This document shows positions 16,527-63,433 of a DNA stretch of 64,000 nucleotides, piece by piece; position 1 is the first letter of the stretch, and the number at the start of each line of letters is the position of its first letter. A model generated the notes under the pieces. That model saw only the letters and a program-made list of their open reading frames with translations, ran no database searches and was not told where the DNA came from. Both the position numbers and the translations under genes were made by a program. The stretch is from Candidatus Electrothrix rattekaaiensis (lineage in GTDB: Bacteria; Desulfobacterota; Desulfobulbia; Desulfobulbales; Desulfobulbaceae): assembly GCA_032595675.1 (NCBI GenBank), contig JAVQMD010000001.1, positions 1,582,640-1,646,639 on the forward strand, read 5' to 3'.

Positions 16527-17066
16527 TCAGTCACATTTAAGAGAAAGCCCTTTTGTATCAATAACTTCTACCTCGGAGGCTCTTTTTCTTTCTGATACTT
16601 TTCTGCTTCTCTCAAGCGTATGCGATGCGGCATTACAGTCATAGGTACCGGGAGTCAGCTGAAAGGAACCTTCCCACCCGATATGGTGACCGCCATTCAT
16701 GACCCAGGAGAAATTTGAAATTTTTTCGGCACCGTTGATGTCAACCGGGATATCCTGACCAAGTGTGTAAATATTCACCACCGGTTTCCTCTTCCCATCT
16801 TGCATGCTGTCTTTCTGTAAGACAAGAACAAAAACCGTGTTGGTTATACTGTCATAACGCAGGTAAACACTCGGCAATACTTCTCCTGCATTGTATCCAG
16901 AACGCATGGGTATGGAAGAATCTTTGTCCAAATCCCACTCATCATACTGACCATCAACAACGGGTGTTTGCGTCCCGGCCTGCGCCGCAAGAGGAAAAAC
17001 GATAAAGAAGAATACCGCCAATCCTGCCATGCGTCTGCTGAGTAAAGAATATCGTGCTCCTTTCAT
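16527..17066 (-). CDS. Secreted protein of unknown function under GEMM-like riboswitch control
   Basis: This 179-residue protein has a clear Sec signal peptide (basic MKGARYSLLSRRMAG, hydrophobic LAVFFFIVFPLA, cleavage after AQA). The mature part starts TQTPVVDGQYDEWDLDKD, which resembles the opening strand of CBM9-like/DOMON-type beta-sandwich proteins; this resemblance is suggestive only. Two cysteines (C in YDCNAAS and C-terminal LKCD) could form a disulfide. The ATG follows a strong AGGAGGT. The 17097-17236 RNA element ends 30 nt before the start codon, so expression is probably tied to a cyclic dinucleotide, which would fit a surface or matrix protein. Confidence 0.75.
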   Translation of the reverse strand: MKGARYSLLSRRMAGLAVFFFIVFPLAAQAGTQTPVVDGQYDEWDLDKDSSIPMRSGYNAGEVLPSVYLRYDSITNTVFVLVLQKDSMQDGKRKPVVNIYTLGQDIPVDINGAEKISNFSWVMNGGHHIGWEGSFQLTPGTYDCNAASHTLERSRKVSERKRASEVEVIDTKGLSLKCD

Positions 17067-17096
17067 TACACCACCTCCTGGTATTGGAAACTAAAA

Positions 17097-17236
17097 GCAG
17101 GTAACCCGGCTGTCTCTCCTATCAGAGACCCGTGGCTTTCCGACGCCGCCTCACGACGGCTGTGGCTTTATCAACTTTCCGACACAGGATTTGGTATTCC
17201 TGCAATCCTGCTCCGCACAGAAAGTCAGGCACCCGC
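17097..17236 (-). ncRNA. GEMM-like (cyclic dinucleotide) riboswitch, variant form
   Basis: Read on the minus strand: a closing stem GCGGGT (17231-17236) pairs with ACCTGC (17097-17102). An extra 5' hairpin starts with ACTTTC and ends with GAAAGT. Then come TGATAAAGCCACA, a hairpin GCCGTC-GTGA-GGCGGC with a GNRA tetraloop, GTCGGAAAGCCACGGG, a third hairpin, and CAGCCGGGTTACC. The GNRA hairpin, the AAAGCCACGG strand and the GCCGGGTTACC end match the GEMM (c-di-GMP-I) consensus as I know it. The extra 5' hairpin and the second AAAGCCAC copy are not part of that consensus. The same layout recurs at 62292. It lies just upstream of the Shine-Dalgarno of the secreted protein gene, suiting control of translation. 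Confidence 0.72.
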
Positions 17237-17776
17237 TGTAAAAGCATAGAGGTACTTAATAGTAAGTTTAAAAATATTAGATTATTTTGTCAACTTTTTT
17301 AATTAAACGAGGCTTATACAGAAAGGAGAAAAGAGGATAGCTCTACTTCATTTCACAGGAGGGAATAAGTTTATAAAGCAAAAAATACATCTAAACTACA
17401 AATGCTTAATGAAAAAAATGAATACATCCGGCCAAGAAACCAATATCACTTTGTGGTAAAAATATTTTTTTCCAACATGTTAAGCTGTTCACCACTTCCT
17501 TCAGCTTTTGCGGCCCCTTTCTCCGTCTATAATTTCCGTTTTTTTTGTTCAAGAGACATTTTTTTATTGCCAAGTTTTCAAAAAAGCAGTATTTAACCGC
17601 GCCCTTTTTTCCCAGAACATGAACCTTTGCAAAAAGAGCTTAAAATTAAAGAGATAAGCTCAAAGGTGACCCCGAAGAAAAAAATATGCGCTTGACCGTA
17701 CTCTACTGCTTTCGATTTCACATCGGGTGACTTGCGAGCAGGCTTTGCACAACTCTTTTTAAGGAGACTGTATGCC
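17237..17776. other. AT-rich intergenic region without a supported gene
   Basis: About 540 bp between the riboswitch (minus strand) and the SET-domain gene (plus strand). The sequence is AT-rich around 17262-17600 and should hold divergent promoters. No convincing coding frame was found; short frames here lack ribosome-binding sites and sensible composition. An AAGGAG for the SET gene lies at its right end. Confidence 0.5.
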
Positions 17777-45991: not shown

Positions 45992-46092
45992 TTACCCCAC
46001 GTTTCACTGGGGGTGCTTTAAACAAAGCTGAGAGAGGTCAGTGCCTCAACCCTTGGAACCTGACACGGTTAATGCCGTCGTAGGGATAGTGA
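45992..46092 (+). ncRNA. TPP (THI-box) riboswitch
   Basis: The element has CTGGGGGTGC, GCTGAGAGAG, ACCCTTGGAACCTGA, CGGTTAATGCCGTCGTAGGGA in the canonical order of the thiamine pyrophosphate aptamer. It lies 130 bp upstream of thiS and would repress the thiS-thiG-thiH transcript when TPP is abundant. A short frame overlapping it (46041-46238) is an artefact of the RNA. Confidence 0.96.
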
Positions 46093-46222
46093 TGAAAGCT
46101 TTGCAGAAATACCTTCCTTTTTTGCCCCTTCTTTCTTCCTCTCCCGCAGTTAATTCTCCACGGCGTGCCGTAAACTTTTTTGATTATTTATTTTCTCGAA
46201 TCTCGAATTATCTCAAATTTCG

Positions 46223-61625: not shown

Positions 61626-62291
61626 ACTGCCTATTCCTTCTTTTTGACGATTTTCGGATTCCGTTTTCCGTCCTTCTTCAGTCTCAGTCTCAGTTTACTG
61701 ACGAACTTCAAACTTTTTTATTTACTTTTGCTTACAATACAGCAAGGAATATGCCGAGAAAGAACCCCCATGCTTCCTTGAAGTAATATCGACTTGTTTT
61801 TTCATAATAAATCACGACCCTTCTTTCTGAGGAACCGGCTCTTCACCTCTTACTCTTTTGAACTTAATAGATTATTTTTTACCTAGACCGCTCCTGCTGT
61901 CGGGTATTTTTGACCCGATTTACGCAAGAATTTTTTGAGTACAGAACAGGTGCGCGTTACGCATTTTCTACCTGTATATTTTTTATACACACAGCGGGAT
62001 ATTACTGAGTAAAAGACGCAAGAAAAGAGAAAAACCTTTGGTTGACAAAAAAAATACAAGGCTGATCAGCACCTCTTCTCTCCCGAAAAAACTCCAGACA
62101 AAAGACCTTAAAACAAAAATATAACTAAATTCAACAACACAGTGCAGGATGCCTGACAGGTATGCACCGCGCCCTTTGCCCTGCCACATTGTGTCGGGTA
62201 AAAAATACCCGTTTCGGCAACGAAAAACGTTGACAGACAGCTGAGGGGAACGTATCCTTAGATATATAACATAAGGCGTGCTTATTAATGA
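61626..62291. other. Intergenic region without a supported gene
   Basis: About 665 bp. AT-rich with short poly-T and poly-A tracts and a hairpin-like TCGGGTATTTTTGACCCGA near 61900. A minus-strand frame through 61983-62414 is only the complement of the RNA element and is not called. It should contain the promoter for the 62292 riboswitch transcript. Confidence 0.45.
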
Positions 62292-62402
62292 GCAGGTTCC
62301 TTGCTTTCTGAATGAATCAGGAAGCTGATAAAGCCACAACCGTCGCGAGGCGGTGTCGGAAAGCCACGGATCTCCCACAAAGGAGACCGCCGGGTTACCT
62401 GC
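62292..62402 (+). ncRNA. GEMM-like (cyclic dinucleotide) riboswitch, variant form, second copy
   Basis: A closing stem GCAGGT (62292-62297) pairs with ACCTGC (62397-62402). An extra 5' hairpin GCTTTCTG / CAGGAAGC (8 bp) is followed by TGATAAAGCCACA, the GNRA hairpin ACCGTC-GCGA-GGCGGT, GTCGGAAAGCCACGG, a hairpin TCTCC / GGAGA, and GCCGGGTTACC. Element order matches the copy at 17097. Stems differ in sequence but keep pairing (ACCGTC/GGCGGT here, GCCGTC/GGCGGC there; GCAGGT/ACCTGC here, GCGGGT/ACCTGC there), which supports the folded structure. AGGAGG of a small frame lies 15 nt downstream. Confidence 0.72.
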
Positions 62403-62429
62403 CTTTCTCTTCATATCAGGAGGTATGTT

Positions 62430-62654
62430 ATGCGAACTACGGAAATAATATCCTACGTAGGTTCAACTATCCTGACAGGATATATTCCTGTCATATTCCC
62501 CTTCCCATTTTTTGTACAGGCAAGAAGCCGAACCGTCTGTTACGCAAAATCCTCTGATCCAGCAAGACAATGGTTAGCTGGAGAAGCGGCACCTGTTAAC
62601 TCGCAACTTCGAGCGCGGTACCATTTGCATCCCAAATTTCTTCGAGTTCCATAA
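62430..62654 (+). CDS. Small protein downstream of the second GEMM-like riboswitch, possibly decayed
   Basis: This 74-residue frame starts at an ATG seven nt after AGGAGG. It begins MRTTEIISYVGSTILTGYIPV and has one hydrophobic stretch; the second half (ARQWLAGEAAPVNSQLRARY) looks unlike a folded protein. Translation initiation signals are excellent and the riboswitch position implies a regulated gene, but the product may be a truncated remnant. The next good gene begins at 62720. Confidence 0.45.
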   Translation: MRTTEIISYVGSTILTGYIPVIFPFPFFVQARSRTVCYAKSSDPARQWLAGEAAPVNSQLRARYHLHPKFLRVP

Positions 62655-62719: not shown

Positions 62720-63433
62720 ATGAAAACGGAAAAAGTATATTCAATTAACTTTGATTTTAGGAAGAGAGAGCAGAAAAGAATCCTTGAATACATGCAGCAG
62801 AGAGGGTATAAACTGCTGGGATTTAAAGGTGCTGAAAGTGACGGGCAGGTTGCCGGAATCCCTGTTTGGTTTTCTGTTCCATACATCAGGATGGCCGGTG
62901 AGGTGAAAAATATCTACCAATCCCTGTATAAAGTGTATTATGTGGAATCTTCAACCCCGTCAGACAAGTCAATCCGGATGACAGCTCTGTCCGAGGTAGT
63001 GGAACTCGGCTCCAAAGTGACTCTTCAGAAAGACGGAAGCTTTTCAGTGGAACCGGGTGGGCCGGAAAATGCTATACTTTTTGTTAATAACAGGGCTGCC
63101 AGCAGTGAGCCAATTACTGCCGGACTTGCATCTCTTGTTAACGGAAAATATGCACCGTTTTGCGCCTTCAAGGTTGCTCCACAGAAGCCCTTACGAATGG
63201 AGCCCAACGATAAAGTCTGCTTATTTGCAATTCCTACAGTCGAAAGAGCCGGGTCAGTTGCAGCTCAGGTTCTTGCTGAAGGAGCTCTGTTCAAGCTTGA
63301 TGCGCCTTCTAACCGTTTATGCCTAGAGATGAAGCAGGAAGGGGGCGGATTCAGCCCGGTATGCTGGGATATGCCGATAACAGAAGTGCATTCAGGAGAA
63401 CCGCTGACCCAGCTGATGGATTCGCATCATTAA
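62720..63433 (+). CDS. Unknown soluble protein
   Basis: This 237-residue protein begins MKTEKVYSINFDFRKREQKR without signal peptide or membrane helix. The region YKVYYVESSTPSDKSIRMTALSEVVELG and the following strands suggest a beta-rich fold. No family is recognised. It ends 55 bp before a strong terminator, and could lie in the same transcript as the GEMM-like leader at 62292, 318 bp upstream. A role in cyclic-dinucleotide-controlled physiology is possible but unproven. Confidence 0.7.
   Translation: MKTEKVYSINFDFRKREQKRILEYMQQRGYKLLGFKGAESDGQVAGIPVWFSVPYIRMAGEVKNIYQSLYKVYYVESSTPSDKSIRMTALSEVVELGSKVTLQKDGSFSVEPGGPENAILFVNNRAASSEPITAGLASLVNGKYAPFCAFKVAPQKPLRMEPNDKVCLFAIPTVERAGSVAAQVLAEGALFKLDAPSNRLCLEMKQEGGGFSPVCWDMPITEVHSGEPLTQLMDSHH

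Follow-up and report, generated by a model that had tools for sequence, protein, structure and literature searches.

To our knowledge, the regulatory parts of riboswitches are usually sought downstream of the aptamer, and Vc2 of Vibrio cholerae, a translational riboswitch of the GEMM-I class, has a long downstream expression platform. Here we describe two copies of a GEMM-I element in a stretch of 64,000 nucleotides (nt) from the cable bacterium Candidatus Electrothrix rattekaaiensis (contig JAVQMD010000001.1, positions 1,582,640 to 1,646,639; hereafter the window). Immediately upstream of the aptamer lies a hairpin whose 5' arm is complementary to the Shine-Dalgarno (SD) region of its own gene and covaries with it, a new observation drawn from sequence comparison. 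We consider it likely that the element is a riboswitch for cyclic di-GMP (c-di-GMP; class c-di-GMP-I) with its expression platform upstream of the aptamer, which would be turned OFF by exchange of the 5' strand of helix P1.

Vc2 has also been called a translational OFF switch (PMC9262584), whereas the anti-Shine-Dalgarno (anti-SD) strand predicted for the cable-bacteria switch lies upstream of the aptamer. In strand-exchange riboswitches, a switching sequence is common to the aptamer and the platform, mostly in the first helix, and the platform is described as downstream (PMC10907184); here, it is the 5' strand of P1 that the two have in common, and the strand predicted to act on the ribosome site precedes the aptamer. 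The GEMM-Ib riboswitches of Geobacter, which respond to cyclic GMP-AMP (cGAMP), belong to the same aptamer family and have extracellular targets, with 17 GEMM-I copies in G. sulfurreducens (PMC6456294) compared with 21 in the genome studied here; in contrast to GEMM-Ib, the window copies keep G at position 20, and A is found in one of these 21 copies (L018). Relative to the Rfam models RF01051, RF03167 and RF03168, the aptamer core, the GNRA loop, the ligand-contact positions and the position of helix P1a are the same, while helix P1b is CC/GG and the 5' strand of P1a doubles as an arm of the upstream hairpin. In the open-access literature searched, we found no riboswitch of cable bacteria, no work on Electrothrix together with c-di-GMP, nothing that combines a riboswitch, an anti-SD sequence and the phrase 'upstream of the aptamer', and no upstream platform recognized as such; the excerpts of PMC12452182 and PMC11487190 hold nothing on upstream platforms either. 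The kind of system is known, namely, a GEMM-I riboswitch and strand exchange, and the arrangement appears to be new. Where such a platform is conserved upstream, half of a switch can go unnoticed in standard annotation.

The aptamers of the two window copies

17096..17175, reverse strand: c-di-GMP-I aptamer match, copy 1 (P1b, P2 with GUGA loop, P3); RF03167 59.6 bits, RF03168 65.0 bits, RF01051 61.4 bits
62323..62402, forward strand: c-di-GMP-I aptamer match, copy 2; RF01051 55.4 bits

A cmscan search of the window reported copy 1 under RF03167, barely over the gathering threshold of 59 bits, and copy 2 under RF01051 instead (threshold 35 bits). Copy 1 also exceeds the RF01051 threshold, and in a permissive scan it stays below that of RF03168 (65.9 bits) and is not assigned to this family; the three models form one clan. 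A preliminary description of copy 1, made from the sequence alone, had taken the element for a variant GEMM riboswitch with a GNRA hairpin and had proposed a covariance-model search with RF01051. The class is borne out by the RF01051 scores of both copies, and so is the hairpin, since the loop reads GUGA in copy 1 and GCGA in copy 2. In the Rfam alignments, P1b, P2 with its GNRA loop, and P3 are present in both copies; P1b is CC/GG rather than GC/GC, likewise in non-cable copies. The element is thus a real, ordinary c-di-GMP-I (GEMM-I) aptamer, and binding of c-di-GMP is predicted from its sequence. On the other hand, the duplication of AAAGCCAC that had been described is not one: in the Rfam models, the first occurrence falls on the AAAGGCAAACC segment and the other on AAAGCCACGG, two different standard segments of the core, so nothing is duplicated.

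A conserved hairpin upstream of the aptamer

17218..17225, reverse strand: 5' arm of the hairpin, copy 1, ACUUUCUG, predicted anti-SD strand from arm/leader complementarity
17182..17217, reverse strand: 36-nt insert in the hairpin of copy 1 (coordinates and predicted fold)
17175..17181, reverse strand: 3' arm of the hairpin, copy 1, CGGAAAG, of which GAAAG is common to P1a
62303..62311, forward strand: 5' arm of the hairpin, copy 2, GCUUUCUGA, predicted anti-SD strand
62317..62325, forward strand: 3' arm of the hairpin, copy 2, UCAGGAAGC

In the oriented copies, the hairpin consists of CUUUCYGG, a loop and CYGGAAAG immediately 5' of the aptamer's UUGAUAAAG; the consensus of the 5' arm can be extended to CUUUCYGGU. 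Both window copies have it on the 5' side of the aptamer. Across 39 non-redundant copies, 90.5% of the pairings at its nine positions are standard, compared with 34-59% when one strand is slid by 1-3 columns, and two-sided changes occur in 17 hairpin cells, a number reached by 0 of 500 shuffles (mean 3.8). Such changes fall on three of the nine pairs, which is not above the shuffles (104 of 500 reach three). The extra 5' hairpin of the preliminary description is therefore real, including its presence in the copy near 62292, and it is not peculiar to the two window copies. That the second copy keeps every stem is not the case, since copy 2 lacks the 36-nt insert found in the hairpin of copy 1. 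Pairing of the 5' arm with the CGGAAA(G) of the aptamer core was rejected, since the core columns are invariant or nearly so and the arm varies together with its local partner, which makes the local hairpin the supported pairing.

The insert of copy 1 can itself fold and carries a second SD-complementary stretch, UCCUG, which may also pair with the ribosome site; GCAGGA occurs near 17204-17209 of the insert and again further on. Similar inserts are present in L056, L066, L084, L095, L099 and L135. In several copies of Ca. Electronema, the hairpin is, by our reading, extended by a second stem whose sequence varies while its pairing is kept, and in many copies a further hairpin is possible upstream of the arm (mean z -1.8 relative to mononucleotide shuffles).

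Covariation of the 5' arm with the Shine-Dalgarno region

17073..17080, reverse strand: SD region, copy 1, CAGGAGGU, complementary to ACUUUCUG
62415..62424, forward strand: SD region, copy 2, AUCAGGAGGU, complementary to the 5' arm

We compared the pairing of each 12-nt arm with its own leader and with swapped leaders in a register-free test. For 98 copies the mean was -11.35 kcal for own and -9.86 kcal for swapped combinations, with 0 of 20,000 permutations as good; the values were -11.10 and -9.38 kcal (0 of 20,000) for 39 non-redundant copies, and -11.14 and -8.92 kcal (1 of 20,000) for the 17 left at a stricter cut. The control on the first 30 nt of the coding sequence was flat, with 18073, 8057 and 10673 of 20,000 permutations as good for the 98, 39 and 17 copies, respectively. 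At least eight of the nine arm bases were paired in 81 of the 98 copies, compared with 7.4% for mononucleotide-shuffled leaders, and the best site of the arm ended 1-8 nt before the start codon, as assigned by script, in 92 of them. For the 20 copies of the window's own genome that have an arm (L004 has none and was left out), the energy was -10.69 kcal compared with -9.21 kcal after permutation (p 0.0003).

A fixed register gave the same direction. Out of nine possible arm/SD pairs, own combinations formed 8.14 and swapped ones 7.81 in 88 copies (0 of 20,000), and 8.03 and 7.62 in 31 non-redundant copies (0 of 20,000); the weights used to set the SD register resemble the complement of the arm, a bias common to own and swapped combinations. 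For the arm and its local partner in the hairpin, the corresponding values were 8.03 and 7.90 (88 copies, p 0.003), and 8.00 and 7.81 (31 copies, p 0.021). In the alignment of 39 copies, 89.0% of the arm/SD positions are paired, and five of the nine pairs show two-sided changes; taken jointly with P1a, 84.3% of positions are paired (0 of 500 shuffles), with five changed pairs (16 of 500). Compensatory changes outside the SD core are CUUUCCAAU/AUUGGGGGG (L155), CUUUCUGCC/GGUAGGAGG (L045, by our own reading), CUUUCUGGC/GCCGGAGGG (L102) and CUUUCCGAU/AUCGGGAGG (L009).

The copies used in these tests were selected as follows. The 80 fetched regions are the higher-scoring RF01051 matches among the matches listed, 64 of them from the genus; G007, which looked like a sister of G004, was left out of the fetched regions, and one G007 copy (L204) is in the 98-copy test. 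The 88-copy set comprises 58 of the 64 fetched genus copies, 20 of the 21 own copies and 10 from a species-wide scan, and was obtained from 93 anchored rows by removing L004, L063, L064, L068 and L089, which had no usable 5' arm or were odd; L068 was kept in the set for P1a and the outer helix (89 copies). Seven further Electronema copies and three others complete the 98-copy set, which includes L155, one of the two copies that failed the core anchor (the other is L079). The tandem L091 and the 16 copies of four non-cable genomes (L111-L126) do not belong to the cable-bacteria set. L223 was left out for lack of a CTTTC arm, L219 and L220 duplicate L143 and L168, and for L077 and L096 the arm was placed manually.

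P1a and the outer helix

17172..17179, reverse strand: 5' strand of P1a, copy 1, GAAAGUUG, overlapping the 3' arm of the hairpin
17093..17100, reverse strand: 3' strand of P1a, copy 1, CUGCUUUU
17228..17237, reverse strand: 5' strand of the outer helix, copy 1, AGCGGGTGCC; AGCGGGU pairs with ACCUGCU (17096-17102); auxiliary
62320..62327, forward strand: 5' strand of P1a, copy 2, GGAAGCUG
62399..62406, forward strand: 3' strand of P1a, copy 2, CUGCCUUU
62290..62296, forward strand: 5' strand of the outer helix, copy 2, GAGCAGG

The canonical P1a pairs the end of the hairpin's 3' arm plus UUG (GAAAGUUG) with the conserved CUGCUUUU after the aptamer. In 89 copies it forms 6.51 of eight pairs in register, and 3.09-5.66 when shifted by 1-3 positions either way; the pair G14-C93 can form in 87 of the 89, and pairs 3 to 8 are standard in 83-98%. 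P1a directly adjoins the junction, as in GEMM-I, with weak support from two-sided changes; variants that look compensatory by eye are GUUG/CAAC (L020, L102) and UCUG/CAGA (L068).

The preliminary description had the closing stem displaced outward. A helix with AGCRGG does exist outside the hairpin in both window copies, and this part of the claim stands; it does not replace the canonical stem, which pairs better in its own register than in any shifted one. Nor could a displaced stem be retained as a general feature, since a run of at least six pairs of the outer helix AGCRGGU/ACCUGCU is found in 48 of the 89 family copies and is missing in 41. In a subset of the copies, the outer helix probably serves as a genuine auxiliary element.

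A proposed mechanism of strand exchange

Because both the hairpin and P1a use GAAAG, they are mutually exclusive, and this overlap together with the arm/SD covariation corresponds to a strand exchange. When the ligand is absent, the strand transcribed first would fold into the local hairpin (CUUUCYGG/CYGGAAAG), leaving the ribosome-binding site free and the gene ON; in about half of the copies the outer helix may help this state by occupying the 3' strand of P1a. When c-di-GMP is bound, P1a would form from GAAAGUUG and CUGCUUUU, taking the 3' arm away from the hairpin, and the freed 5' arm would pair with the SD region that precedes the start codon; this would lengthen the P1a stack and stop translation. 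The arm/SD helix encloses P1a, and no pseudoknot is needed. Tight binding is described as depending crucially on P1, which in the related pilM switch forms only when the ligand is present (PMC9262584); since Vc2 is an OFF switch in the same account, we infer the OFF direction here, although the sign is the least certain step of the model.

Predicted folding of the 88 leaders (ViennaRNA energy model) is consistent with such an exchange. Forcing P1a costs a mean of 3.3 kcal; the arm then pairs with the 3' region at 0.81 instead of 0.27, and the mean accessibility of the SD region drops from 0.24 to 0.10; more than 0.2 is lost in 25 of the 88 leaders and gained in one. Copy 2 folds as the model predicts, with arm/SD pairing going from 0.04 to 0.99 and the unpaired SD fraction from 0.13 to 0.00.

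A number of results weigh against this mechanism. As to folding, the predicted change in accessibility is at most 0.2 in 62 of the 88 leaders, and even without ligand the SD region is predicted to be little exposed (mean unpaired 0.24). Copy 1 belongs to the weaker cases: forcing P1a in it leaves the arm/SD pairing at 0.00 in both states and the SD accessibility nearly as it was (0.36 and 0.35), a result that in the energy model is probably due to competing pairings of the 36-nt insert; in the fixed register, the arm and SD region of this copy form seven of nine pairs, or eight contiguous ones if shifted by one. As to the complementarity, an SD finder independent of the arm, in which many rows slipped register, gave a smaller effect (7.19 own against 7.03 swapped pairs, 70 of 20,000 permutations as good), with arm positions 7-9 alone at 1733 of 20,000 in the full set and, significantly, at 21 of 20,000 in the 17-copy set; because of these slips it was replaced by the register-free test. 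The contingency between arm position 6 and SD position 4 is 1.6e-5 in 88 copies and 0.23 in the 31 non-redundant ones. A small own/swapped excess was also found for the region upstream (6.71 against 6.55, p 0.0006), so shared ancestry contributes a background. Lastly, six of 25 other ribosome sites in the window, each scored with the better of two consensus arms, reach eight of nine pairs, compared with 41 of 98 here, so generic SD sequences also fit fairly well.

The latter figures bear on the idea that the hairpin is a 5' stabilizer or spacer, whose likeness to an anti-SD sequence comes from its purine-rich, SD-like partner GGAAAG. The complementarity is indeed largely generic, as the ordinary sites and the swapped arms, which already pair well with SD regions at a mean of -9.86 kcal, indicate. 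However, own combinations beat swapped ones in each of the three register-free sets with a null coding control, and compensatory changes occur at arm positions 7-9, outside the SD core; all three of these positions are paired in 12% of the other window sites and in 38% here. We therefore hold the spacer explanation to be very improbable.

Some results on P1a and the outer helix also count against the mechanism. Next to G14-C93, 83 of 89 copies have a U.U mismatch, and the permutation test, which has little power, gives weak values for P1a (p 0.044 for all copies and 0.30 for the non-redundant ones). No P1a pair has a two-sided change in the alignment of 39 copies, and the outer helix exceeds permutation (5.89 against 5.57, p 0.0002). 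The last of these would also suit a switch of opposite sign, in which the bound form consists of the outer helix and the hairpin in a four-way junction, the SD region is freed and the gene is ON, and the 5' arm is paired with the SD region when the ligand is absent. The two helices are mutually compatible, the arm already lies on the SD region in the free fold of some leaders (e.g., L003, L008 and L105), and several non-cable GEMM copies of the order, with a terminator-like hairpin after the aptamer, look ON by our reading. However, the outer helix is missing in 41 of the 89 copies and would pair position 92, a ligand contact; G14 can pair with C93 in nearly all copies, as expected for the canonical P1a; and the conserved CUUUU would be left unexplained. 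The opposite sign is thus unlikely in our judgment.

Ligand specificity

G20 and C92 are ligand-contact positions (PMC9049102), and the mapping of this Vc2 numbering onto our alignment is our own. Both window copies have G at position 20 and C at position 92; of the 93 copies, 90 carry G and three carry A at the former position, and 88 carry C and five carry U at the latter. The A at position 47 is fixed by the selection of rows, as the core anchor pattern requires it. A at position 20, which we take to be the change tied to cGAMP specificity and which marks GEMM-Ib, is thus not found in the window copies. A change of the pocket of the cGAMP-type kind is described without a number in PMC9481103.

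These residues bear on the suggestion of the preliminary description that the hairpin and the displaced stem define a structural subclass of GEMM with altered ligand affinity or specificity. The hairpin abuts the ligand-binding junction, and A20 does occur elsewhere, in three orthologous-looking copies. However, neither window copy departs from the canonical contacts, which makes a new ligand unlikely for them, and a new ligand class was rejected; with the class-specific Rfam models, copy 1 scores only around the thresholds. The match to the SD region accounts far better for the hairpin. Its 5' arm fits the ribosome site of the gene, and its 3' arm shares nucleotides with the 5' strand of P1a, so that we would rather see in the hairpin an expression platform than a part of the aptamer. 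The subclass is therefore an improbable explanation; an effect of the hairpin on apparent affinity is possible, since it competes with P1a.

The three A20 copies (L018:1501-1578, L059:201-279 and L097:201-281) match RF01051 or, below threshold, RF03168 in Rfam, and are by sequence candidate cGAMP or dual-ligand switches of cable bacteria. U at position 92 is found in L011, L057, L106 and L129, which have similar leaders, and in L110 and L222; it is kept in several genomes. Thirteen GGDEF matches are present in the window's own genome, eight of which were read. Hypr enzymes have Ser at one position (PMC6456294). This position presumably corresponds to the last D of GHxxGD, and six of seven GGDEF proteins have D at it. 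In the seventh, L234 (G000:C1:268769-269236), GGDEF is intact and the motif reads GHHAGT, with T where the other six have D, which would make it a possible producer of a mixed dinucleotide; L231 has GYKAGD with NADEF.

Distribution of the switch

The genome of Ca. Electrothrix rattekaaiensis (4.48 Mb) contains 21 RF01051 matches, all over the cut-off, and seven other genomes of the genus contain 9 to 27 each, giving 146 in total for the eight; 29 other relatives have 0 to 24. Among the matches listed, the 5' arm of the hairpin is present in 78 of 85 Electrothrix copies (20 of 21 own and 58 of 64 fetched), and the hairpin is found in Ca. Electronema as well. A scan for GAAAGYTGATAAAGCCAC in one genome per species of 84,980 species, which may omit records of the window's own genome, returned 47 stretches. 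Thirty of them lie in records of Electrothrix, S24.Bin023 or Electronema (L136, L158 and L160 were counted as GEMM by eye, and L167 is incomplete), and the 17 in unrelated taxa have no GEMM in the 130 nt from the match. Of 257 genomes of the order, 11 contain the pattern CTTTC-N4..34-GAAAGNTGATAAAG, namely, all eight of the genus, two of five of the Electronema genus and one without GEMM, and so do six of 395 genomes sampled over the phylum, namely, the window's own and five without GEMM; the pattern is strict, as further hairpin-bearing Electronema copies do not match it. In none of these pattern searches, over the order, the phylum and the 84,980 species, was the hairpin found outside Electrothrix and Electronema, and it was absent by eye from 16 GEMM copies in four non-cable genomes of the order.

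On balance, we lean towards a single ancestral origin of the switch in cable bacteria, where it would have multiplied into a regulon-wide c-di-GMP OFF switch with its regulatory strand 5' of the aptamer, acting on secreted proteins directly and on fast-changing leader open reading frames (ORFs) before conserved genes. Cable bacteria are hard to grow; the switches, which are open to tests in a standard laboratory host, offer a concrete handle on their c-di-GMP signalling. With about a hundred variants found in nature, strand exchange on the 5' strand of P1 can also be tested by covariation.

Some copies depart from the common arrangement. L091 (G004:C1:4928518-4929263) has three tandem GEMM-I aptamers without the upstream hairpin and a terminator-like sequence after each of the first two; the same spacing is seen among the matches listed in G007. 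Two Electronema copies, L045 and L221 (G016:C86, 16693-17002), are separated by about 230 nt, and each has a leader and a start codon of its own; in another (L167 / L179), a truncated switch, the sequence diverges after the hairpin and the first part of the aptamer.

Predicted target genes and leader ORFs

16527..17066, reverse strand: gene predicted to be controlled by copy 1, 179-amino-acid (aa) protein with a signal-peptide-like N-terminus, no Pfam match
62430..62654, forward strand: leader ORF of copy 2, 74 aa, starting from the switched ribosome site
62720..63433, forward strand: gene for a 237-aa protein after the leader ORF of copy 2; two related genomes have a similar gene in this position; no match in Pfam

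The secreted protein that had been placed after copy 1 agrees with our own reading of its N-terminus as a signal peptide. Nine of the 21 own copies lie directly before a long ORF (L001, L003, L007, L008, L011, L013, L018, L019 and L020), and 11 before a short ORF of 28-123 aa, namely, that of window copy 2 and those of L002, L005, L006, L009, L012, L014, L015, L016, L017 and L021; L004 is irregular. An ORF of at least 144 aa follows within about 700 nt of the short ORF in nine of the 11. Two related genomes also have an open frame (74 and 61 aa) where copy 2 has its leader ORF, and in them it precedes the similar gene. No Pfam match at E 0.01 was found for 10 of the 18 proteins scanned, including the gene of copy 1 and both proteins of copy 2. 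The others match fn3 and DUF6531 (L013), RHS repeat (L020), PilJ (L009), DUF4382 (L012), hemerythrin (L014), CAP (L015), an NAD-binding domain (L016) and a phosphonate-binding domain (L021). The hemerythrin-like genes of three genomes, of which the own one was tested against Pfam, have leaders of 123, 44 and 110 aa.

Translation of the leader ORF may control the downstream gene by polarity or coupling. A Rho-like bias of C over G was not found (1.51 in the 11 leader ORFs and 1.42 in the nine direct ORFs, p 0.82), and a crude terminator scan of the 11 leader-ORF regions gave six hairpin/T-run sites in four of them, none convincing. The candidate targets comprise secreted, RHS-like, PilJ-like, CAP and hemerythrin proteins, and if the proposed strand exchange is true, the signal would probably switch off the production of surface and secreted proteins.

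A thiamine pyrophosphate (TPP) riboswitch is located elsewhere in the window, at 45999-46104 on the forward strand (RF00059, 79.5 bits).
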